Assembly (NCBI RefSeq): GCF_024138165.1
Contig: NZ_CP100000.1
Span: 806,001 to 870,000, forward strand
Length of the DNA: 64,000 bases
Source: Halorussus vallis
GTDB lineage: Archaea; Halobacteriota; Halobacteria; Halobacteriales; Haladaptataceae
Direction of reading: 5' to 3'
Under the pieces are notes generated by a model. It saw only the letters and a list, made by a program, of their open reading frames with translations. It was not told where the DNA came from and did not search any database. The first letter of the stretch is position 1. Each line of letters begins with the position of its first letter. The translations under genes were made by a program, and so were the position numbers. This document shows positions 1,663 to 12,411 of the stretch, in pieces.

Positions 1663-1728
1663 CTTAAATCAGTAATGTCGCATTGAACGTAAATCGGTAT
1701 CTTTTTTAATGGGTAGGCTCGCATTGAA
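1663..1728 (+). promoter_or_regulatory. Paired CATTGAA direct-repeat promoter, copy 1
   Basis: CTTAAAT at 1663-1669, CATTGAA at 1681-1687, a TATA-like TTTTTTAA at 1702-1709 and a second CATTGAA at 1722-1728, followed by ATG at 1735. The TATA box is 26-33 nt before the start codon, so the transcript is probably leaderless. Every spacing recurs exactly before the paralogue at 3943. The two CATTGAA boxes are 41 bp apart, about four helical turns, which suggests a bound regulator. Seen directly; function inferred. Confidence 0.6.
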
Positions 1729-1734
1729 GCGTAC

Positions 1735-3255
1735 ATGGCACGCGACGAAATGGCACGCGATTCCGACTCCGACAAACTGCTCGACCGACGATCGTACTTG
1801 AAGATGGCCGGCGCGGCCGCCGCCTCGGTCACCGCAGCGGGCGTCACCGCCGACGGCGCGAAGGCGGCGTCCTACGACACCATCAAGGTCCCCGCAGGAA
1901 GCCGCCGCACCATCAAGGTGGGCCCCGGCGAGACGTTCGAGAACAAGCTCATCGACATCACCGCCGACGGCGCGCACGTCAAGCTTCTCACCCAGGGGAG
2001 CGGCTGGACGATCCGGAACGTCGGCCTCAAGGGTGTGAACAACGACCGGAGCGATACCTACGGCACGTTCTACCTGCGCTGCACCGACGGCGGCGAGGGC
2101 CTCGCGGAGAACATCTACATGGGCGACGGAACCGCCGACCGCGCGCACCACGCCGCGATGTCCGACTGGGACAACTCCGGCACCGTCACCATCCGGAACA
2201 TCCACGTCCAGGGCTGGGGCGCCGACGGGATGTACATGTCCCACGCGGGCGTCTCCCAGAGCCACGGCATGGGCGACACGCGAATCGAGAACGCCTACCT
2301 CAAGAACAACAACATCGAGAACGCCCGCCTCGGCACGCCCGGGTCGTACATCAAGGACTCGGTCGTCCACGTCGAGGGCGAGGACGCCGTCCAGTCGAAC
2401 GAGTCCGGCCAGAAGAACCCCCGCGGTCTCTGGTTCAAAGAGCAGTCGGGCATCAAGGCCATCAACTGCGACATCAAGGTGAACGGCGCGTACGCGGTGT
2501 TCGCCAGCGACAACGGCAGCGGCACGCTGGAGAACTGCCGGGTCGACGGCCGCATCGGCGGTCCCGTCACCAAGAAGAACGTCTCGGGCAACCCCGACGT
2601 CACCCCGCCGAAGGGTGTCCCGATGTCTGCCGAGGAGGCGGCCTCGGGAAACGTCGGCGGCGGTAGCACGAGCGCACCGACGACCAGCGACGACCAGCAG
2701 AACCAGCAGGACCAGCAGAACGCCCAGGGAACGCCCCTCGAACTGGTGTCGAGCGACGACGCCTCCAGCGAACAGTACCAGTTCACCGTCGAAGGCGCCG
2801 TTCACAGGAAGACTTCAGGCAGCGTCACGGCCGAGTCCGGCGACAAGTTCGCGAAGAACGACGACGGCACCGTCACCGTCTCGGGCGTGGCAGGCAACGG
2901 CTACGGCGACGCCTTCCTCGTCGACGGCTGTATCACCGCGATGGACATCGACGAGAGCAAATGGACGCTTCGCTACGACGGGAGCGAGGTCGCCGTCTCG
3001 GACATCGTCCTCCCGAACGCCCTCATCATCGACGGCAGCGACCACCCGCGACAGGCGAGCACGTACGAGTTCGCGGTGAGCGGGACGGCCCGCAAGAGTG
3101 CGGCGCTGGCCACGGTCAACCCCCACGACACCGTCGAGGGCGGAAAGATCTCCGGCCGAGTCATCGGCGGCAAGGACGCCTTCCGGTACTCCGGCGAGAT
3201 CACCGGCTTCACGCTGAGCGGTCCGGCGAACGTTCGCGTTCAGGACGGTTCCTGA
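1735..3255 (+). CDS. Tat-exported right-handed beta-helix surface protein, paralogue 1
   Basis: 506-residue exported protein. Residues 1-45 hold a twin-arginine signal (DRRSYLKMAGAAAAS) after an acidic leader MARDEMARD. Residues about 46-290 are Asn/Gly-rich repeats of the pectate-lyase-like parallel beta-helix type (TIRNVGLKGV, TIRNIHVQGWG, TRIENAYLKNNNIENARLG). A Gln/Ser/Thr-rich linker near 300-330 leads to two tandem copies of a beta module, each with a YxFxVxG opening and an SGxVxGxxxAFxxxGxIT-like core. The frame between the TATA box and the ATG at 1735 supports this start; MARD at 1747 is the alternative. No catalytic residues could be assigned, so enzyme versus adhesin or matrix protein is open. 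The paralogue at 3943 shares the whole layout and the promoter. Confidence 0.8.
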   Translation: MARDEMARDSDSDKLLDRRSYLKMAGAAAASVTAAGVTADGAKAASYDTIKVPAGSRRTIKVGPGETFENKLIDITADGAHVKLLTQGSGWTIRNVGLKGVNNDRSDTYGTFYLRCTDGGEGLAENIYMGDGTADRAHHAAMSDWDNSGTVTIRNIHVQGWGADGMYMSHAGVSQSHGMGDTRIENAYLKNNNIENARLGTPGSYIKDSVVHVEGEDAVQSNESGQKNPRGLWFKEQSGIKAINCDIKVNGAYAVFASDNGSGTLENCRVDGRIGGPVTKKNVSGNPDVTPPKGVPMSAEEAASGNVGGGSTSAPTTSDDQQNQQDQQNAQGTPLELVSSDDASSEQYQFTVEGAVHRKTSGSVTAESGDKFAKNDDGTVTVSGVAGNGYGDAFLVDGCITAMDIDESKWTLRYDGSEVAVSDIVLPNALIIDGSDHPRQASTYEFAVSGTARKSAALATVNPHDTVEGGKISGRVIGGKDAFRYSGEITGFTLSGPANVRVQDGS

Positions 3256-3642
3256 CCGCGAACACCCGCGAAACCCCCCGCTGACGCACCTCGGGTCGAC
3301 CCCCTCCACGGCGTCCGTCGCCGACGCATCGACCCTCCGAACGCTCCTCCCCTTCTGACGTCGTCGCTTCGGTGAGCGCCGGCCGGACGTCGACCCCGGC
3401 GAACGCTCGTTCACTCCGCCGAAACCGCGTCCCGCGGCCGACACCGCCGGCCTTCGTTCGTCGAAATTCTTCCCGCTCGCGACCCGGAAACCGGTTTCCG
3501 GCCGCGATTCCCTCGTCTGTTTCCCCGTGCGCACGTAGGCCGACTAGATTTTCCTTCGCGCACGCGAAGGCTCGCGCATGCGCGCCGAGGCACGGACGCG
3601 ACGGGGCGGTAGTGGTGACGAGTCGGGGTGAGAAGACGGGGA

Positions 3643-3674
3643 TCGGGCGCGAACCGCACGCGGTTCGCGCCCGA
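3643..3674. repeat. GC-rich hairpin, 14-bp perfect arms
   Basis: TCGGGCGCGAACCG (3643-3656) pairs perfectly with CGGTTCGCGCCCGA (3661-3674) around a 4-base CACG loop. No T-run follows, so it is not a typical archaeal terminator. It belongs to a set of similar long palindromes in this window (19457, 23494, 23657, 33689, 38341, 39432). Confidence 0.7.
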
Positions 3675-3870
3675 CCCGCCACCGGCCCGAATTTACTCGT
3701 GCAACGGACGGAATCTCGACAGTTTCGCTCGGTTCCGGTGAAAATGCCTCGGAGAAAGGACGGGTTACCGGCCGATATTCCACGGAGGGAATATAAAGAG
3801 GAGTTTCCATCCGTAGCGGGAGGGCGCGGTTCGGCCCCAATCGACCGGATTCCGTTCGCCGGCCGCTATA

Positions 3871-3936
3871 CTTAAATTGGTAAGCGAACATTGAACGAAA
3901 ATCAGAGCGTTTATCAGGTATTAACCTCGCATTGAA
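3871..3936 (+). promoter_or_regulatory. Paired CATTGAA direct-repeat promoter, copy 2
   Basis: CTTAAAT at 3871-3877, CATTGAA at 3889-3895 and 3930-3936, and a TATA-like TTTATC at 3910-3915, then ATG at 3943. The distances between CTTAAAT, both CATTGAA boxes and the ATG (18, 41 and 13 bp, start to start) equal those of the copy at 1663-1735, although the bases between the boxes differ. This points to selection on the boxes rather than only a recent duplication. Confidence 0.6.
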
Positions 3937-3942
3937 AACTGC

Positions 3943-5565
3943 ATGGCACGCGACGAAATGGCACGCGATCTCGACTCCGACTCCGACTCTCTGCTGGACC
4001 GCCGCTCGTATCTCAAACTGGCCGGCGCGGCCGCCGCCTCGGTCGCCGCGACCGGGGCCGCGACCACCGCGAACGCGGCGTCCTACGAGACGATCAAGGT
4101 CCCCGCTGGCAGCAGCCGCACCTTTGAGGTCGGCGACGGTGAGACCTTCGAGAACAAGCTCATCGACATCTCCGCCGAGGGTGCTTCGGCCTACATCCAA
4201 GCCACGAGCAACAACTTCACGATCCGCAACGTCGGGTTCAAAGGCACGCACCCCGGCGACGAGTTCCCCGTCATGGTTTCGGTGCCGGACGCGAGCGCGA
4301 CCGGGACCGTCGAGAATCTCTACCTCGGCGACGGGAGCATCGAAGGGTCGTACTCCGGCGGCATCTTCGTCCAGTACTCGCCCGAACACAACGGCACCCT
4401 TCGACTGAAGAACGTCCACATCGCCCACTTCTCGAACAACGGGCTCTACGGCTCGGCCCCCGGCCACCGCGGCCAACAGGGCATCACGCACGTGGAGGAC
4501 TCGTTCTTCTACAGCAACAACATCGCCAACATCCGCCTGGGCAACGACACCGAACTCAACTACGTCCGCAACTGCACGGTGAAAGTCGACGGGACGACGC
4601 CCGCCTGCGACGCCAACTGCTCGTCGCCCGGCGCGGTCCGCAACCGCGGCGTCTGGGCGTGGACCGGCCGCGTCGAACTCGAGAACTGCGACATCCAGGG
4701 CGACCTCGAAACCATGGAAGGCGGCGAGATAACCCAGACGAGCACGAAGGTCGGCAGCTCCGCCGACACCACCCCGCCCGCGGGCACGCCGATGTCGGCC
4801 GAAGAAGCCGCCAGCGGCGGCGGCTCCGGGTCGGGCGGTTCGTCGGGTTCGGACGGTTCGTCGGGCTCCGGGTCTGACGGCTCGACCTCCGACGGCTCGG
4901 ACTCCTCCGGGTCGGGCGACTCCTCGGGCTCCGACGGCTCGACGACCGACTCCTCCCAACCATCAGGACGTTTGCTCGAACTCATCTCGGGCCAGGACAC
5001 CGACGCCGAACCCTTCGAGTTCACCGTCGAGGGGAGCGTCACGAAGGCGACCGCCGACGTCCAGCATCCCGCGGGTTACACCGACACCGTCACCGACAAC
5101 GGCGACGGCACCGTCACGGTATCCGGCACGGCGGGCCAGGGAACCGGCGACTCGTTCTGGGTCGACGGCTCCGTGACCGCGATGAACGTCACCGGGAGCA
5201 ACTGGACCATCCGCTTCGACGGCAGCGAGGTTTCGGTCGCCGAACTCACCGGTAGCTCGTCGGGTTCGGACGGCTCGGACTCCTCTGGGTCGGGCGACTC
5301 CTCCGGGTCGACGTCGCTCCCGAACACCATCCTCGTCGACGGCACCGAGCACCCCCGGCGGCTCAGCTCCTACGAGTTCTCGGTCACCGGCGACATCCGG
5401 AAGGACGGAACGCGGGGCTCCATCAACGCCCGCGACAACGTCTCCGGAAGCGACGCCGCCGGCCGGGTCATCAGCGGCAAGGACGCCTACCGGTTCTCGG
5501 GCGAGATCACCCACTTCCGACTCCAGGGTTCGGCCGTCGTGGAGGTCCGCGATGGTTCGCAGTGA
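3943..5565 (+). CDS. Tat-exported beta-helix surface protein, paralogue 2 with Gly/Ser linkers
   Basis: 540 residues. The MARDEMARD leader and the DRRSYLKLAGAAAAS twin-arginine signal match paralogue 1. A beta-helix of short Asn/Gly repeats (TIRNVGFKGT, LRLKNVHIAHFSNNG, VEDSFFYSNNIANIRLG) occupies residues about 45-275. A Gly/Ser/Asp linker near 285-340 separates it from the two C-terminal beta modules, and a second Ser/Gly/Asp linker is inserted between those modules (around residues 435-455), which paralogue 1 lacks. Two Cys in CDANCSSPG may form a disulfide. The linkers look like expanded simple repeats. Probably a surface or extracellular glycan-binding or glycan-modifying protein; activity unassigned. 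The 3' end overlaps the next gene by 14 bases. Confidence 0.8.
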   Translation: MARDEMARDLDSDSDSLLDRRSYLKLAGAAAASVAATGAATTANAASYETIKVPAGSSRTFEVGDGETFENKLIDISAEGASAYIQATSNNFTIRNVGFKGTHPGDEFPVMVSVPDASATGTVENLYLGDGSIEGSYSGGIFVQYSPEHNGTLRLKNVHIAHFSNNGLYGSAPGHRGQQGITHVEDSFFYSNNIANIRLGNDTELNYVRNCTVKVDGTTPACDANCSSPGAVRNRGVWAWTGRVELENCDIQGDLETMEGGEITQTSTKVGSSADTTPPAGTPMSAEEAASGGGSGSGGSSGSDGSSGSGSDGSTSDGSDSSGSGDSSGSDGSTTDSSQPSGRLLELISGQDTDAEPFEFTVEGSVTKATADVQHPAGYTDTVTDNGDGTVTVSGTAGQGTGDSFWVDGSVTAMNVTGSNWTIRFDGSEVSVAELTGSSSGSDGSDSSGSGDSSGSTSLPNTILVDGTEHPRRLSSYEFSVTGDIRKDGTRGSINARDNVSGSDAAGRVISGKDAYRFSGEITHFRLQGSAVVEVRDGSQ

Positions 5566-5779
5566 AGCCCAGGCCGCCCGCGATAGCTGGGAGTCCGCGC
5601 CCCGGGACCCCGAACCCGAGGACCTCGGCTACGAACTCGCCGACTGGGAGGTCATCCGCGCCCGCAAGGACGACCGCGGGCATCTGATGTTCCTCCCCGA
5701 AGACGAAGAACAGCTCAGAAAAGAGGCGTTCATCGTCGCCGACGCCTGCTCGGTCTGCGACGTGAACGAGCGAATCTAG
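5552..5779 (+). CDS. Small conserved-type haloarchaeal protein, function unknown
   Basis: 75 residues, acidic and soluble, with no signal peptide or membrane segment. Two Cys sit near the C-terminus in ADACSVCDV, a spacing that could bind metal only as part of a dimer. The ATG at 5552 lies inside the last codons of the upstream beta-helix gene, in another frame, which suggests translational coupling. The codon pattern (G or C at third positions) supports real coding. I do not recognise the family. It converges with the mutase gene 4 bases downstream. Confidence 0.62.
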   Translation: MVRSEAQAARDSWESAPRDPEPEDLGYELADWEVIRARKDDRGHLMFLPEDEEQLRKEAFIVADACSVCDVNERI

Positions 5780-5783
5780 CGAC

Positions 5784-7310
5784 TCAGGGCCGCTCGGTAG
5801 CGGTTCCCCGCTCCGCGGCGTCTCCCTCCGCCGCGTTCCCCCTCGCGTCCCCTTCCGCGGTGCGTTCCCCCGCTTCCGCGGCGAGTTCCCCCTCCGTCGC
5901 GGATTCTTCCGCCGCCGTTTCTTCCTCCGACGCGGTTTCCCCTTCCGCGTCCGCCGCCGATTCTACCAGCGCCTTCGCTTCTCCGAACAATTCCGCCGCG
6001 CGCGCCTCGCTACGGGCCTCGGCGGTCACGCGCACGACCGGTTCGGTGCCGCTGGCGCGAACCAGGAACCACCCTTCGTCGGTCCCGACCCGGACGCCGT
6101 CGGCGGTCGCGACGTCCCCGTACTCGCGCCGGACCCGCCGCTCGACGCCCGCGACGACCGACGCCTTCTCGGTCGTCTCGACGTTCCCGCGGCGGATGGG
6201 GTAGGTTTCGATTTCGGCGAGGAGGTCTGCGAGCGGGCCGCGGTCGGCAACCAGCGCCGCGAGCCGACACGCCGCCAGCGGGCCGTCGGGACACAGCGTC
6301 TCCTCGGGCCAAATCCACGCGCCGCTCGGCTCGCCGCCGAAGGCGACGTCCGGGTCGGTCGCGCGTTCGGCGACGTAGACGTCGCCGACGCGCGTGCGGG
6401 CGACGTCGGCCCCGCGGTCGGCGAGCGAGTCGGCGACCGCGAGGCTGGTGTCGACGGGAACCGCCACTCGGTCGCCGGGACCCGCGGCTTCGCGGGCGAA
6501 CAGCGCGAGCAGTACGTCGCCGTCCGGGAAGGTACCGTCGTGGGCCACCGCGCGCATCCGGTCGGCGTCGCCGTCGTGGGCGATGCCGAGGTCGGCGTCG
6601 GTCGCCGCCACCAGTTCCGCGAGTTCCCGGCAGTTCTCGGCGGTGGGTTCGCTCGGCCGTCCCGGAAACCGGCCGTCCGGCTGGGCGTTCAGCGTCCGGA
6701 CGTCACAGCCCAGGCGGTGGAGCGCGTCGGCGGTGACGCCGCCGACGCCGTTGCCGACGTCGACGACGACCGAGAGGTCGGCGAGCGGTCGGGCGGTCCC
6801 GTCGCGCTCGCCGTCCTCGCGGGTCCCGTCTCCGTTGCTCACCGCGTCGGCGAGCGTCCGGGCGTGGCGGTCGGTCGCGCCGTCCCATCGCTCGACCGCA
6901 CCGAGGCCGTCCCAGCGAGCCAAGTTGTAGTTCTTCGCGCGCACGCGCGAGGCGATGGCCTCGCGCTGGCTCTCGTCGAACGCCTGGCCCGAGGGGTTCC
7001 AGAGCTTGATGCCGTTGTCCGTCTCGGGGTTGTGGCTCGCGGTGACCATCAGCCCCGCGTCGGCGTCGCGCCAGCCGACGCTCCGGGCGACCGTCGGCGT
7101 CGCCGCCTCGCCGATTCGAATCACGTCGGCGCCGCACTCCCGCAGGCCCGCCGCCGCGGCGTCGGCCAGCAGGGGACTGCTCGTTCTGGCGTCTCGGCCG
7201 ACGACCACGCGGTCGTAGCCCTCGCTGGCGAGCGCCCGGCCGACCGACAGCGCGAGGTCGGCGGTGACCTCGTCGCCGACCGGCCCGCGCACGCCGCTAC
7301 TTCCGAACAT
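5784..7310 (-). CDS. glmM: GlmM-type phosphohexomutase (phosphoglucosamine/phosphomannomutase family)
   Basis: 508-residue alpha-D-phosphohexomutase. Seen: the N-terminal MFGSSGVRG of the family, the phosphoserine loop GLMVTASHNP (S92), the metal loop IAHDGDADR, the sugar loop GGEPSGAWIW and the phosphate-binding RASGTEPVVRVT. In the glycan context it most likely converts glucosamine-6-P to glucosamine-1-P on the way to UDP-GlcNAc, but phosphomannomutase activity cannot be excluded from sequence. The last 60 or so residues are an Ala/Glu/Gly/Thr-rich low-complexity tail beyond the usual family end. Start: ATG at 7310, sharing one base with the stop of the upstream membrane regulator (TGATG), so the two are probably one transcript from promoter site b. 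Confidence 0.85.
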   Translation of the reverse strand: MFGSSGVRGPVGDEVTADLALSVGRALASEGYDRVVVGRDARTSSPLLADAAAAGLRECGADVIRIGEAATPTVARSVGWRDADAGLMVTASHNPETDNGIKLWNPSGQAFDESQREAIASRVRAKNYNLARWDGLGAVERWDGATDRHARTLADAVSNGDGTREDGERDGTARPLADLSVVVDVGNGVGGVTADALHRLGCDVRTLNAQPDGRFPGRPSEPTAENCRELAELVAATDADLGIAHDGDADRMRAVAHDGTFPDGDVLLALFAREAAGPGDRVAVPVDTSLAVADSLADRGADVARTRVGDVYVAERATDPDVAFGGEPSGAWIWPEETLCPDGPLAACRLAALVADRGPLADLLAEIETYPIRRGNVETTEKASVVAGVERRVRREYGDVATADGVRVGTDEGWFLVRASGTEPVVRVTAEARSEARAAELFGEAKALVESAADAEGETASEEETAAEESATEGELAAEAGERTAEGDARGNAAEGDAAERGTATERP

Positions 7311-7870
7311 CAGTGCTCCTGTCCGTCGGCCCGCCGGAGTTCCGGCGGCGTCCCCACTTCGTTGCCGTGGCGGTACTGGAGGAAGTGGACGACCGCCGAC
7401 GCGCCGAACACCAGCAGGATGATCGTCGCGAGGACGAGTCCGGGCACCAGGCTGAACGGGTAGATGTTCAACCAGACCGCGCCGACCAGGACCGCCCCGA
7501 CCCCCGCGAGCGCGAGGTAGTAGCGGTCCCACGGGAACTCCTCACGCGAGACGTCGCCGAGGTAGATGTCCAGGTCGGAGGACCGACTTCCGAGGCGGAC
7601 GACGCCGGCGTCGCGGTCGTACTCGACGATGTTCGCCTCGTCGAGTTTGGGGAGGTGGGTCTGGTACAGCGAGATGTACACGCGCTTTCGCTGCTCGGTC
7701 GAAAGCGCGGCGGGCGTCGTCTCGTTCTCCCACGCCGCGACCTGTTCGGTGAGGTCGGAGAGGTCGGCCTCGCCGCCCTCCCGTCGGAGATAGTACAGCG
7801 CGTAGCGTCGCCGCGGGCTCTTCAGGACCTCGAACACCTCGTCCTGGGAGAGCTCTTCACTGTGCGCCAT
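7310..7870 (-). CDS. Winged-helix protein with two C-terminal membrane segments (DUF7344-like)
   Basis: 186 residues. Residues 1-100 resemble the haloarchaeal winged-helix domain found in DUF7344-type proteins (SQDEVFEVLKSPRRRYALYYL, YISLYQTHLPKLDEANIVEYD). Two hydrophobic segments follow at about 125-145 and 150-172, so the DNA-binding domain is tied to the membrane. The start at 7870 (MAHSEELSQDEVF) is preferred over an upstream ATG at 7909, because the extension MYRLRRPVDGNRS is not family-like. It is co-transcribed with the mutase gene. A role as a membrane-associated regulator of surface genes is inference. Confidence 0.75.
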   Translation of the reverse strand: MAHSEELSQDEVFEVLKSPRRRYALYYLRREGGEADLSDLTEQVAAWENETTPAALSTEQRKRVYISLYQTHLPKLDEANIVEYDRDAGVVRLGSRSSDLDIYLGDVSREEFPWDRYYLALAGVGAVLVGAVWLNIYPFSLVPGLVLATIILLVFGASAVVHFLQYRHGNEVGTPPELRRADGQEH

Positions 7871-7982
7871 GCTCCTGTTGCCGTCGACCGGTCGTCGGAG
7901 GCGATACACTGTCGGAACCGCCGGGGTGTGGGAGTAGCAACGACTGAGACCGCCACATACACCGAGAATTGCTCCGTTGGCA

Positions 7983-8012
7983 CTTTGTTACCCAGTTGCT
8001 GTTCGGGGGTAA
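7983..8012 (-). promoter_or_regulatory. Bipartite TTAC-N18-TAACAAAG promoter element (site b)
   Basis: Minus-strand TTACCCCCG starts at 8012 and GGGTAACAAAGT has its TAACAAAG at 7990-7983, a 22-base offset like those of sites f and g. The start codon is 113-120 nt downstream, which implies a leader of roughly 90 nt if the element occupies the TATA position. Confidence 0.5.
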
Positions 8013-8143
8013 TCCCGCGATGTGCGGAGGGCTCGCCCCCGTCACGGGGCGCTTATCGCCGCGGTAGGCCCCAACACCGCGGCGGGGCGAACCCCCCGCC
8101 TAAACCGGGCGTATTCGCCAGCGGGAACGCCGATAGGTCCGTT

Positions 8144-8174
8144 CTACCGCGAGTCCAAGCGGCGTATAACAAAG
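8144..8174 (+). promoter_or_regulatory. Bipartite CTAC-N19-TAACAAAG promoter element (site c)
   Basis: CTACCGCG begins at 8144 and GTATAACAAAG has TAACAAAG at 8167-8174, an offset of 23 bases. It drives the five-enzyme sugar-nucleotide operon starting at 8312. Confidence 0.55.
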
Positions 8175-8183
8175 AGGTCAACA

Positions 8184-8315
8184 ATGCATGGACTGGATAA
8201 CGCCCGGCCCGCCGTCCGGCGGTACGGTCGGGCAAACTACCTACCTATGATTCAGCTATCGACCGAACGTACTCGATACGGCTCGGTGGGACGCGGCGGA
8301 GGTGACGCTCGGTGA
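8184..8315 (+). other. Possible leader ORF (43 codons) ending on the operon start codon
   Basis: An open frame from ATG at 8184 (or ATG at 8247, 22 codons) ends in TGA at 8313-8315. That stop overlaps the GTG start of the acetyltransferase as GTGA. The peptide is Arg/Gly-rich and matches nothing I know. If TAACAAAG at 8167 is the core promoter, the ATG at 8184 would lie upstream of the transcript, so only the 22-codon version could be made. Long open frames are common in GC-rich DNA, hence the low confidence. Confidence 0.2.
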
Positions 8316-8971
8316 GTCGGCCGGACTCCGCGGAGGCCGCGACCGACTCGGGAGCGGCCGACGACCCCGTCGACGCGGACGCCGAGACGACCGGAGCGGC
8401 GCTCGGCGACGACTGCGAGGTTTCCCCCGACGCGACGGTGGGTCACCGCCACCGCGAGGGCGCCGAACCGCCGAAGATCGGCGACCGCGCGACCATCCGG
8501 TCGGGCGCCATCGTCTACGCCGACGTGACCATCGGCGACGACTTCACGACCGGTCACGGCGTGCTAGTCCGCGAAGACACCGATATCGGCGACGACGTCG
8601 TGGTGGGCACCGACACCGTCATCGACGGGACGACCACCATCGGCTCGCACGTCAGCCTCCAGACGGGCGTCTACGTCCCCACGGACACGACCATCGGCGA
8701 CGAGGTGTTCGTCGGCCCGAAGGCCGTCCTGACGAACGACCCCTACCCCATCCGCAAGGACGTCGACCTCGAGGGGCCGACCCTCGAAGACCACGTCTCG
8801 GTGGGCGCGAACGCGACCATCCTGCCGGGCGTGACGGTCGGCGAGGGGTCGTTCGTGGCGGCCGGCGCGGTCGTCACCGAGGACGTGCCGCCCGAGACGC
8901 TGGCGGTCGGCGCGCCCGCCGAGCACCGACCGCTCCCCGACGACCTCGAAGGAGGGAATCAGATCGCATGA
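8312..8971 (+). CDS. WbpD/WlbB-like UDP-sugar 3-amino N-acetyltransferase (left-handed beta-helix)
   Basis: 219 residues. From residue 45 on it is built of hexapeptide repeats (ATIRSGAIVYADVTIGDDF, TTIGSHVSLQTGVYVPTDT, ATILPGVTVGEGSFVAAGA), the hallmark of trimeric LbH acyltransferases. The segment VGPKAVLTNDPYP matches the WbpD/WlbB subgroup, which acetylates UDP-3-amino-GlcNAc-uronate. An acidic, Ala-rich N-terminal 40 residues is a haloarchaeal extra. GTG start at 8312, preceded by the strong ribosome site GGAGGTGA at 8298-8305. It overlaps the aminotransferase by ATGA. The next genes complete the same pathway, which makes the assignment firmer than sequence alone. Confidence 0.82.
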   Translation: MSRPDSAEAATDSGAADDPVDADAETTGAALGDDCEVSPDATVGHRHREGAEPPKIGDRATIRSGAIVYADVTIGDDFTTGHGVLVREDTDIGDDVVVGTDTVIDGTTTIGSHVSLQTGVYVPTDTTIGDEVFVGPKAVLTNDPYPIRKDVDLEGPTLEDHVSVGANATILPGVTVGEGSFVAAGAVVTEDVPPETLAVGAPAEHRPLPDDLEGGNQIA

Positions 8972-10056
8972 GCGACGTTCCCATCGCGGACCCGGAGCTT
9001 CGGGACCGCGAAATCGACGCCGCGGTCGAGACGCTCGAATCGGGGATGCTGGCCGACGGCCCGCAGGTCCGGGAGTTCGAAGCCGAGTTCGCCGGCTTCT
9101 GCGAGGCCGAACACGGCGTCGCCACCAGCAACGGGACGACCGCCCTCCACGCCGCGCTCGAAGCGCTCGAAATCGGCGAGGGCGACAAGGTGGTCACCTC
9201 GCCGTACTCGTTCGTGGCGAGCGCGAACGCGGTCCGACTCGCCGGCGCCGAACCGGTGTTCGCCGACATCGACCCCGACACGTTCAACCTCGAACCCACG
9301 GCGGTCGAGGAAGCCATCCGGCGCGAGGACGACGTGGCGGCCGTCATGCCGGTCCACCTCTACGGCCTCCCCGCCGAGATGGACCGCCTGCTCGAAATCG
9401 CCGACGAGTACGACCTCGCGGTGATCGAGGACGCCGCCCAGGCCCACGGCGCGGCGTACGAGGGCCGGAAGGTGGGGTCGTTCGGCGACGCCGCCTGCTT
9501 CTCGTTCTACCCCACGAAGAACATGACCACCGGGGAGGGCGGGATGATAACCACGAACCGCGAGGACGTCGCCGAACGCGCCGAGAGCTTCGTCAACCAC
9601 GGTCGGCCTCCCGAAGGCGGCTACGAGCACGTCCGGACCGGCCACAACTTCCGGATGACATCGACGGCCGCCGCCATCGGCCGGGTCCAGCTAGACCGCC
9701 TCCCCGACTACAACGAGGCTCGCCGCGAGAACGCCGCTCGCTTCGACGAGGCGCTGGAGGACGCCGACGTGGTGACGCCCTACGTACCCGAGGGCCGCCG
9801 CCACGTCTACCACCAGTACACGATTCGCGCCGACGACCGCGACGGCCTGGCCGACCACCTCGAAGCCGAGGGCGTCGGCACGGGCGTCTACTACCCGACG
9901 CCCATCCACGAACTGAAAGCCTACGCCGACGTCGACCACGCCGCGCCGGTCGCCGAGCGGACCGCCGGACAGGCGCTGTCGCTGCCGGTCCACCCGAATC
10001 TCACCGAGGAGGACCGCCGAACCGTCGTCGACGCCGTCACCGAATATCAGCCCTGA
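8968..10056 (+). CDS. WbpE-like PLP aminotransferase (DegT/DnrJ/EryC1 family)
   Basis: 362 residues, the usual length of sugar aminotransferases. PLP Lys is K184 in FSFYPTKNMTTGEGG; VIEDAAQAHGA carries the Asp that contacts the pyridine nitrogen; SNGTTALHAAL binds phosphate. In the Wbp route it transaminates the 3-keto group of UDP-2-acetamido-3-oxo-glucuronate, using glutamate. The start ATG at 8968 is fixed by the ATGA overlap with the acetyltransferase; the frame is open further upstream but lies inside that gene. It is followed 10 bases later by the 3-dehydrogenase, its coupled partner in bacteria. Confidence 0.88.
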   Translation: MSDVPIADPELRDREIDAAVETLESGMLADGPQVREFEAEFAGFCEAEHGVATSNGTTALHAALEALEIGEGDKVVTSPYSFVASANAVRLAGAEPVFADIDPDTFNLEPTAVEEAIRREDDVAAVMPVHLYGLPAEMDRLLEIADEYDLAVIEDAAQAHGAAYEGRKVGSFGDAACFSFYPTKNMTTGEGGMITTNREDVAERAESFVNHGRPPEGGYEHVRTGHNFRMTSTAAAIGRVQLDRLPDYNEARRENAARFDEALEDADVVTPYVPEGRRHVYHQYTIRADDRDGLADHLEAEGVGTGVYYPTPIHELKAYADVDHAAPVAERTAGQALSLPVHPNLTEEDRRTVVDAVTEYQP

Positions 10057-10066
10057 AACTCCAACC

Positions 10067-11065
10067 ATGAACCTCGACGTATCCAACCCAGTCAACGCCG
10101 CCGTCGTCGGCGTCGGAAGCATGGGTCGCCACCACGCCCGGGTGTACAGCGAACTCCCCGGCGTGAACCTCGTCGGTGTCTACGACGTCGACGAGGACCA
10201 GGCCCGCGCCGTCGCCGACGACCACGGCACCCGCGCGCTGAACCTCGAAGCCCTGCTGACCGCCGCCGACGTCGCATCGATCGCCGTGCCGACGCCGTTC
10301 CACGCCGACATGGCCGAACAGTGCATCGACCACGGCGTGGACGTGCTCGTCGAGAAGCCCTTCGTCGATGACCCCGAGGTGGGTCGCGACCTCCTGGCGG
10401 CCGCCGACGAGGCGGGCGTCACGATACAGGTCGGCCACGTCGAGCGGTTCAACCCCGCCATCCGGTCGCTGGCCGACATCGTGGCCGACCTCGACATCAT
10501 CGCGGTCGACGCCCGCCGCCTCGGGCCGCCGCCCGAGGACCGCGAACTCGACCAGAGCGCGGTGCTCGACCTGATGATCCACGACATCGACGTGGTGCTG
10601 TCGCTGATGGGCGAGAAGCCCTCCTCGGTCGAGGCCCGCGGCGCGAAGGACAACCAGCACGCCACCGCCACGCTCGGGTTCGACGACGGCACGGTCGCGA
10701 CGCTGACCGCCAGCCGAGTCACCCAACAGCGGGTGCGAAAGCTCGCCATCACCGCCGAGGAGTGTCGGGTCAACGTCGACTACATCGACCGGTCGGTCGA
10801 AATCCACCGCCACTCGCTGCCCGAGTACATCGAGGACAACGGCGACGTGCGCTACCGCCACGAGAGCATCGTCGAGCGGCCGACTGTCGAGACGGGCGAA
10901 CCGCTCAAGAACGAACTCCAGTCGTTCGTCGCCGCGGCGACGAACGACGAGGCCGACCCGGTGGTTTCGGGCGAGGACGGCCTGCGAGTGCTGGAGGTCG
11001 CCCGCGAGATAGACGACATCGCCTCGGGCGAGGAGCGCGAGGAAGTCGGGGTGAGCGCACGGTGA
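10067..11065 (+). CDS. WbpB/WlbA-like UDP-N-acetylglucosaminuronate 3-dehydrogenase (Gfo/Idh/MocA)
   Basis: 332 residues. Rossmann motif VVGVGSMGRHHARVY at about 15-29, the family EKPFVDD signature near residue 100 (conserved Lys), and QVGHVERFNPAI plus LMIHDIDVVLS in the C-terminal alpha/beta domain. It is expected to oxidise C3 of UDP-GlcNAc-uronate with NAD+, feeding the aminotransferase encoded just upstream. The stop overlaps the GTG start of the next gene (GTGA at 11062-11065). Family is certain; the exact substrate rests on operon context. Confidence 0.85.
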   Translation: MNLDVSNPVNAAVVGVGSMGRHHARVYSELPGVNLVGVYDVDEDQARAVADDHGTRALNLEALLTAADVASIAVPTPFHADMAEQCIDHGVDVLVEKPFVDDPEVGRDLLAAADEAGVTIQVGHVERFNPAIRSLADIVADLDIIAVDARRLGPPPEDRELDQSAVLDLMIHDIDVVLSLMGEKPSSVEARGAKDNQHATATLGFDDGTVATLTASRVTQQRVRKLAITAEECRVNVDYIDRSVEIHRHSLPEYIEDNGDVRYRHESIVERPTVETGEPLKNELQSFVAAATNDEADPVVSGEDGLRVLEVAREIDDIASGEEREEVGVSAR

Positions 11066-12411
11066 GCCTCCAGGAAGTGGGCCGACTCTACGGGAGCGAC
11101 GCCCCCGAAGCCGACCAGCGAACCGCGTTCCGCACCGGCCAGATTCCGGTCGCGGTGTACGGCCTCGGCAAGATGGGCCTGCCGCTGGCGGCGGTGTACG
11201 CAGAAACCTGCGGCAACGTGGTCGGCGCCGACGTCGACCCCGACGTGGTCGAGACCGTCAACGCCGGCGACTGCCACGTCAAGCGCGAACCCGGCCTGGC
11301 CGATGCGGTCGCCGAAACCGTCGAGTCGGGCGCGCTCCGCGCGACCGACTCGCCCGCCGAGGCCGCTTCCGAGGCCGCGGTCCACGTCGTCATCGTGCCG
11401 ACGCCCATCACCGAGGAGAAGGCCGCCGACCTCTCCATCCTGCAGTCGGTCGCCCGCGACATCGGGTCGGGACTCGACCGCGGCGACCTGGTGGTCGTCG
11501 AGTGCACCGTCCCGCCCCGGACCTGCGCGGACACCCTCTACCCGCTACTCGCCGAGGAAGCGGGCCACGAGGAGTTCGGCCTGGCGTTCTGCCCCGAACG
11601 GACCTCCAGCGGTCGCGCGCTCGAGGACATCCGGGGCGCGTACCCGAAGGTGGTCGGCGGGGTCGACGACGAGTCGACTCGGGTCGCCGAACTCGTCTAC
11701 GACGACATCACCGACAACGAGGTGCTGACCGTCTCGGACGCCACGACCGCGGAGGCGGTGAAGGTGTTCGAGGGCCTCTACCGCGACGTCAACATCGCGC
11801 TGGCGAACGAACTGGCGACGATGACCGACGAGATGGGCGTCGACGTCAACGAGGCCATCGAGACGGCCAACACCCAGCCCTTCTGCGACATCCACGACCC
11901 CGGGCCGGGCGTCGGGGGCCACTGCATCCCCTACTACCCCTACTTCGTCATCGACGAGTTCGACACAGACTCGCGGTTGCTCGAGACCGCCCGCGCGGTC
12001 AACGACGACATGCCGACGTTCACGGTCGAGACGCTTGCGCGGGAACTCGACGCCGAGGGGACGCCGGTTTCCGAGGCGACCGTCGCGGTGCTGGGTCTGA
12101 CCTACCGGCCCGGCGTCGAGGAGACGCGGGCCTCGCCCGCAATCGGCATCTCGGCGGGACTGTCCGAACTCGGCGCGGAGGTGCTGGGCGTCGACCCGAT
12201 GCTCGACGACGCCGACGAGTTCGACGCCGAGAAGGTCGAGTTGGAATCGCTCTACGAACGAGATATTGACGCCGCGGTGCTGGTGACGCCCCACGAGGAC
12301 TTCGAGCGAATCGAGTGGAATCGGTTCGACCCGCTGGCCGTCGTCGACGGCCGCGGGACCCTCGACCTCGGGGACACCGCCCACCGCGTCTACACCATCG
12401 GTAGCGGATAG
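11062..12411 (+). CDS. Nucleotide-sugar 6-dehydrogenase (WbpA/WecC type)
   Basis: 449-residue UDP-glucose/UDP-N-acetylhexosamine dehydrogenase. NAD site VAVYGLGKMGLPLAAVYA near residue 30; EKAADLSIL loop near 120; CPERTSSG around 180; catalytic Cys in PGVGGHCIPYYPYF; C-terminal domain with LGLTYRPGVEETRASPA. It oxidises the C6 alcohol of UDP-GlcNAc or UDP-ManNAc to the uronate. GTG start at 11062 inside the stop of the 3-dehydrogenase gene. Together with the WbpB, E, D and I homologues beside it, the WbpA role (UDP-GlcNAc) is favoured over WecC. Confidence 0.86.
   Translation: MSLQEVGRLYGSDAPEADQRTAFRTGQIPVAVYGLGKMGLPLAAVYAETCGNVVGADVDPDVVETVNAGDCHVKREPGLADAVAETVESGALRATDSPAEAASEAAVHVVIVPTPITEEKAADLSILQSVARDIGSGLDRGDLVVVECTVPPRTCADTLYPLLAEEAGHEEFGLAFCPERTSSGRALEDIRGAYPKVVGGVDDESTRVAELVYDDITDNEVLTVSDATTAEAVKVFEGLYRDVNIALANELATMTDEMGVDVNEAIETANTQPFCDIHDPGPGVGGHCIPYYPYFVIDEFDTDSRLLETARAVNDDMPTFTVETLARELDAEGTPVSEATVAVLGLTYRPGVEETRASPAIGISAGLSELGAEVLGVDPMLDDADEFDAEKVELESLYERDIDAAVLVTPHEDFERIEWNRFDPLAVVDGRGTLDLGDTAHRVYTIGSG

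Follow-up and report, generated by a model that had tools for sequence, protein, structure and literature searches.

The locus analysed here raises the question of what controls two neighbouring, paralogous beta-helix genes of the haloarchaeon Halorussus vallis, and why both carry the same pair of CATTGAA boxes ahead of the same short leader. The genes lie near the start of a stretch of 64,000 nucleotides (nt) from contig NZ_CP100000.1 (positions 806,001 to 870,000 of the forward strand), which we call the window and whose numbering is used below. Our results suggest an answer that we consider likely, namely control at two levels, in which a tandem promoter is combined with a trans-encoded RNA that covers the start codon. 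What stands by comparison of genomes is conservation, spacing, the freezing of codons, a covarying hairpin, strand bias, co-occurrence and complementarity; what we infer is that the RNA is transcribed, that it pairs with its targets in the cell, that its effect is repression and not activation, and that a DNA-binding factor takes part.

Gene 1 (1735..3255, + strand) codes for a beta-helix protein of the twin-arginine translocation (Tat) type with 506 amino acids (aa; Pfam Beta_helix, PF13229), and gene 2 (3943..5565, +) for a paralogous Tat-type beta-helix protein of 540 aa, the two being 46% identical. An earlier note on this DNA had pointed to a common MARDEMARD start, which both coding regions indeed have and which is followed by a twin-arginine DRRS signal (DRRSYLK). 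The promoter layout described there was also confirmed with its coordinates: CTTAAAT, CATTGAA, CATTGAA and ATG are separated by 18, 41 and 13 bp ahead of both start codons (ATG at 1735 and 3943, +). For gene 1, the distal promoter P1 has its TATA box CTTAAAT at 1663..1669 (+), recognised from the sequence and from column conservation, and its CATTGAA box at 1681..1687 (+), 18 bp past the start of the TATA box and located by pattern search and family alignment. The proximal promoter P2 has a TATA-like TTTTAAT at 1704..1710 (+), 18 bp ahead of its own CATTGAA box at 1722..1728 (+), which lies 41 bp past the first box. For gene 2, P1 consists of CTTAAAT at 3871..3877 (+), read from the sequence, and CATTGAA at 3889..3895 (+), and P2 of a weak TATA-like TTTATCA at 3910..3916 (+), placed from the family alignment, and CATTGAA at 3930..3936 (+), both CATTGAA boxes having been found by pattern search. 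CTTAAAT is the haloarchaeal TATA box.

A simple explanation for such a likeness would be paralogy, with promoter and leader alike through recent duplication and slow divergence, and the fact that every double-box promoter precedes the same leader family does speak for common ancestry. The window promoters are not trivially recent duplicates, however, because their upstream and inter-box identities are low. Only 20 of 60 positions are identical beyond the TATA box, where the sequences are unrelated, so that the high upstream identity named by the earlier note as the mark of a simple recent duplication is absent. The sequence between the boxes differs, as had been claimed (19/34 positions identical), as do the stretch that separates TATA from box 1 (4/11) and the one that leads from box 2 to the ATG (2/6). 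An antigenic-variation-type cassette was ruled out, the promoters within one genome not being homogenised. When the pattern CATTGAA-N34-CATTGAA was searched in the window with up to 2 mismatches, the two promoters were the only matches, against 0.04 expected. The search of the whole genome (5.05 Mb) for further exact copies found none beyond the two in the window, and the loose matches with 3 mismatches (57, vs 40 in the reversed control) were set aside as chance.

The pattern becomes clearer across the family. Promoters were collected as orthologues and paralogues by protein similarity, with additional searches for the leader or the box pattern, and double-box promoters were counted where both boxes were present with at most one mismatch per box. 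In Halorussus and Haladaptatus, the box-to-box spacing is exactly 41 bp (3.9 helical turns) in 57 of 61 such promoters, while the distance from box 2 to the ATG is 13 bp in 58 cases, 12 in 7, 11 in 1 and 10 in 9. Because the 41 bp are kept as this second distance drifts, insertions and deletions appear to be tolerated beside the gene but hardly between the boxes. By column conservation each box ends a unit TTTAAAT-N2-GGTAA-N4-G-CATTGAA, the TATA, AATCGG and GGTAA columns being independently conserved in the promoter alignment. A TATA-like sequence stands 18 bp ahead of each CATTGAA and is canonical for both units in Haladaptatus, the next genus with the motif after Halorussus, where a perfect CTTAAAT stands at the place of the P2 TATA. 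From these alignments, the boxes are best read as parts of two tandem core promoters of the form TATA-GGTAA-CATTGAA, and the view of them as an operator upstream of a single promoter gives way to one in which they are the downstream halves of two TATA-18-CATTGAA units. A promoter-only model (R2) has 2-4 sites per genome in 28/28 genomes of the Haladaptataceae and none in 31 others, and a MARD leader lies downstream of all 30 R2 matches examined. The control region is thus common to more family members in the relatives, as had been suspected, but no further double-box promoter occurs in the H. vallis genome itself. Single-unit versions of the promoter precede other members of the gene set, namely L033, L085, L086, L090, L094, L197, L200, L201, L203 and L211.

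The leader that follows is conserved in its nucleotides and not only in its amino acids. In gene 1 it holds, from the start codon, two copies of GGCACGCGA (1737-1745 and 1752-1760, within 1737..1760, +), and in gene 2 likewise two (3945-3953 and 3960-3968, within 3945..3968, +). Among 27 genes obtained by protein search, codon 2 is GCA in 27/27 and the alanine of the second repeat is GCA in 24/24, vs 9.2% GCA among the other alanine codons of these genes; codon 3 in turn is CGC in 27/27, vs 43% of arginine codons elsewhere. The DRRS motif is equally conserved, yet its arginine codons vary freely. Paired copies of GGCACGCGA number 8 in the H. vallis genome and 0 in the reversed control, and they follow the nucleotide sequence even where the protein does not: a GH5-like gene has its second copy out of frame (MARDTGTRE), and in the gene for a PKD-domain protein a copy sits in the 5′ untranslated region (UTR). 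Single copies are conserved at the start codons of a membrane protein of about 90 aa (MARDLNKARD or MARDLNN), a small zinc-ribbon-like protein and a 35-aa upstream open reading frame (ORF). In the same genome the 12-mer GCATGGCACGCG has 10 sites, vs 2 for its reversal, and 9 of them fall on ORF starts or on the RNA locus described below, while AUGGCACGCG is carried by at least 10 ORF starts. Under paralogy the leader should show the same synonymous divergence as the sequence outside it, against which the frozen codons speak. Across genera, the boxes, their spacing and the synonymous positions of the leader have stayed frozen where upstream and inter-box sequence has diverged, promoter and leader persist in many genomes in which the protein body has decayed, and the start-codon site recurs in genes that are not related to each other, those for GH5, the PKD protein and a small membrane protein. 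We therefore regard simple paralogy as very unlikely. The MARD leader is, on this codon evidence, a nucleotide-level element that matches a predicted antisense hairpin RNA, beyond being a protein motif.

Other occurrences of the leader sequence may be mentioned here. At L143 (G000:C1:2464688-2464715, minus), two GGCACGCGA copies with a spacing of 19 bp lie some 130 bp away from a tRNA gene, where no gene start is obvious; they may serve as a decoy or mark a target that has not been annotated. A conserved 35-aa ORF starting MARER with the 12-mer target is found at L130 and L300 (G000:C1:35258 and G010:C1:2337488), and in G000 the L130 ORF extends into the beginning of the gene for a protein predicted to be exported.

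The counterpart of the leader is found at a single place. In each genome one paired-repeat locus is not at a gene start and carries the antisense of GCAUGGCACGCGA in a hairpin loop. In H. vallis it lies at C1:2282568-2282687 on the minus strand, 3′ of a dedA gene, and in 28/28 genomes it shares the strand of dedA, a VTT-domain gene, and lies 86-216 nt 3′ of it. On that strand, the layout is GGCGTCAGACCTAACA, a variable 21 nt, then TGCGCTCGCGTGCC-GACTTCA-TCGCGTGCCATGC-NATGAACT-CACGCGAGCGCA, and in most Halorussus a GC hairpin and then a T-run follow CACGCGAGCGCA. A model of the locus (R1) has exactly one full-length match in each of the 28 Haladaptataceae genomes (18 Halorussus, 1 of a second genus and 9 Haladaptatus) and 0 in 90 others. 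In the 28-sequence alignment, 99.6% of the pair cells of the hairpin are standard, vs 10-62% in slid controls, and both sides of a pair have changed in 20 cells, a number reached by 0 of 500 shuffles, these covariation counts coming from an alignment of related sequences that was fitted to the model. The outer stem covaries and the loop TCGCGTGCCATGC is invariant in 28/28, whereas the neighbouring upstream spacer averages 57% conserved. Rfam gave no match for the hairpin, whether hits were cut at the gathering threshold or admitted up to E = 1, and a literature search brought up nothing relevant on small RNAs (sRNAs) in Halorussus or Haladaptatus. We take the hairpin, which is conserved family-wide, to be a previously undescribed candidate RNA.

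The strand of this candidate can be judged from the imperfect pairs. On the leader-antisense strand the non-Watson-Crick pairs comprise 63 G·U and 2 A·C (20 and 2 in the outer helix), and because these counts would be reversed on the other strand, the RNA strand should be the one antisense to the leaders. A hairpin with a T-run is found on the antisense side in 15/28 genomes and on the other side in 2/28. Both observations bear on the alternative of a sense transcript, which would either act as a decoy, titrating a protein or another RNA through its identity with the mRNA leaders, or carry a tiny ORF (MARDEVGTRA...). An ORF of 19-24 aa does start in the loop in most genomes, yet on the sense strand the wobble pairs become A-C (63 vs 2), and the hairpin-plus-T-run is on the opposite side. 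The frame of the putative micro-ORF is shifted in two species and its length runs from 19 to 118 aa, and we consider a sense transcript highly improbable. The micro-ORF itself (MARDEVGTRA..C) was rejected as a candidate, its frame being lost in L215 and L223 and its length variable.

In principle, GGCACGCGA could instead be a DNA operator for a repressor or activator protein, and the hairpin locus another operator cluster made of an inverted and direct repeat array. Such a reading would account for direct repeats of the site at 12-19 bp spacings in differing contexts, 5′ UTRs included, and for the out-of-frame copies as well. Protein recognition has no need of compensatory changes in the stem, however, nor of G-U in place of A-C on one strand, and it does not lead one to expect a hairpin whose stem varies while its loop stays constant, or leader conservation that begins exactly around the start codon. 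The operator reading is unlikely on these grounds, and an RNA antisense to the leaders is the explanation that we pursue.

Complementarity between this RNA and its putative targets was assessed by duplex energy. The predicted RNA-mRNA duplexes have z-scores against shuffled targets of -5.4 and -7.5 for the two window genes and of -2.4 to -7.0 for the other targets scored, values that quantify complementarity and are not proof of pairing. RNA-leader pairs from the same genome are slightly better than permuted pairs (p 0.01, without correction for phylogeny). In G020 and G024 (L249 and L250, with L021 and L025), a change of GTGCC to GTACC in the RNA is matched by a change of GGCACGCG to GGTACGCG in the mRNA, from alanine to valine. 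This matching change was not used as proof of coevolution, as in G023 the RNA is changed and the mRNA is not.

Taken as a mechanism, the two-level control would run as follows. P1 would yield an mRNA with a 5′ UTR of about 41 nt. In haloarchaea most transcripts start at the ATG or up to 5 nt from it, and 72% of the coding transcripts of Haloferax volcanii are leaderless (PMC4983044). Because transcripts mostly start at or near the ATG, P2 should yield an mRNA that is leaderless or almost so. Both CATTGAA elements are probably bound, on the same face of the DNA, by a family-specific factor. The conserved trans-encoded hairpin RNA, of about 100 nt, would pair through its invariant loop UCGCGUGCCAUGC with the start codon and the codons that follow, the target being the first codons AUGGCACGCGA-N6-GGCACGCGA of the leader mRNAs. 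This loop pairing would most likely block initiation on the beta-helix mRNAs, and genes for exported or membrane proteins that share the site would be blocked as a wider regulon. Repression seems likelier than activation, because the start codon itself would be paired and because sRNAs of Methanosarcina mazei that cover start sites repress (PMC6560208, PMC5867862). On balance we find it probable, with some reserve, that a family-wide sRNA silences a surface and membrane regulon by sealing leaderless start codons, that this has frozen the target codons, and that the degenerate ORFs described below are kept as regulated, possibly decoy, leaders of the downstream gene.

Several observations weigh against this proposal. 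Little sRNA-mRNA co-variation is usable, since the loop never varies, and no interaction between RNA and leader was seen between genera by duplex energy; the fitted alignment of related sequences behind the stem counts belongs here as well. There is no clear TATA box upstream of the RNA at the locus, the terminator-like hairpin was found neither in Haladaptatus nor in the H. vallis genome, and the RNA may be a product of the dedA 3′ UTR. The beta-helix orthologues L031 and L032, in G050 and G034 of another family, begin with ATGGCACGCGAC, and no hairpin RNA was found there, so that part of the leader may predate the RNA. The 41-bp spacing, for its part, could partly be inherited and not selected.

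The genes behind the promoters show how far the control region is tied to the beta-helix proteins. Where Halorussus genomes were examined for this, most have a degenerate ORF of 60-90 aa, and no beta-helix, behind the second promoter-leader. In the 9 aligned cases the stop codon of this ORF and the start of a conserved gene of 75 aa overlap; the homologue of that gene in the window is at 5552..5779 (+) and overlaps the end of gene 2 (from the sequence and the family alignment). Such short degenerate ORFs are seen at L005, L006, L007, L009, L010, L011, L012, L014 and L173. Because they keep both promoter and leader intact, these elements have been retained though the protein body was lost, and the ORF is a possible leader peptide with translational coupling to the 75-aa gene. 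The idea of a dedicated switch for surface beta-helix proteins survives in its first half, a dedicated and conserved control region, but not in its restriction to beta-helix proteins, as many copies drive a degenerate ORF of 47-98 aa. A structure model of the beta-helix protein (mean predicted local distance difference test score, pLDDT, 78.9) had only weak matches with low template-modelling (TM) scores among solved structures, to glycan-active beta-helices (tailspikes, pectate lyase, alginate epimerase). By inspection of the sequence, window positions 5784-12411 hold likely genes for a phosphoglucosamine mutase, an acyltransferase, a DegT aminotransferase, a Gfo/Idh oxidoreductase and a UDP-sugar dehydrogenase, probably a polysaccharide cluster beside the beta-helix pair. 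A role in surface glycans is plausible for the beta-helix proteins, as predicted from the weak structural matches together with the neighbouring genes. The proteins of genes 1 and 2 share a C-terminal domain of about 80 residues (LPNxLVIDGS...GGKDGYRFSGE) without a Pfam match, which is present in three tandem copies in a separate leader-bearing protein (L146, G000:C2:269198) and is perhaps surface-anchoring.

In haloarchaea, whose mRNAs are mostly leaderless, we know of no established route by which an sRNA could reach a ribosome-binding site that does not exist. If the proposal is true, RNA targeting explains the odd MARDxxARD start common to unrelated exported proteins, and conserved N-terminal peptides may be RNA target sites and not protein features. 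From the genome comparison come the RNA with its likely strand and loop, the set of targets and the individual bases that a mutant should change, so that the idea is directly testable.

Trans-acting archaeal sRNA-target pairs have been described as scarce (PMC8155600). The haloarchaeal core promoter consists of a transcription factor B recognition element (BRE) CGAAA, a TATA box TTWT and a -10 WW (PMC4983044); the units described here resemble it in the TATA box and the approximate TATA-to-start distance, and depart from it in the added GGTAA-N5-CATTGAA between TATA and start and in the locking of two units 41 bp apart. Two haloarchaeal intergenic sRNAs with a defined regulon are known from H. 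volcanii, sRNA132 and s479 (PMC6560208, PMC8155600). The former is predicted to pair inside ORFs or 3′ UTRs (PMC6560208), in contrast to the start codons proposed here, and the latter lies at a CRISPR (clustered regularly interspaced short palindromic repeats) locus, has a handle like that of CRISPR RNA and is matured by Cas6 (PMC8155600), whereas our locus lies behind dedA. The closest parallels are sRNA162, sRNA154 and sRNA41 of M. mazei, which are trans-encoded, mask the ribosome-binding site and start codon, and are reported or proposed repressors (PMC5867862, PMC6560208). Like them, the hairpin RNA would be a structured intergenic RNA, encoded away from its targets at one locus per genome, with a loop complementary to the translation starts of several mRNAs; a relation in sequence was checked through Rfam only, with no match. 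The mRNAs targeted by the M. mazei sRNAs have 5′ UTRs and Shine-Dalgarno sites, whereas here the target would be the start and first codons of probably leaderless mRNAs, with a loop invariant across the family and target codons that are frozen. With the structural and complementarity features in place, the hairpin RNA is a candidate start-site-masking sRNA of the M. mazei type.

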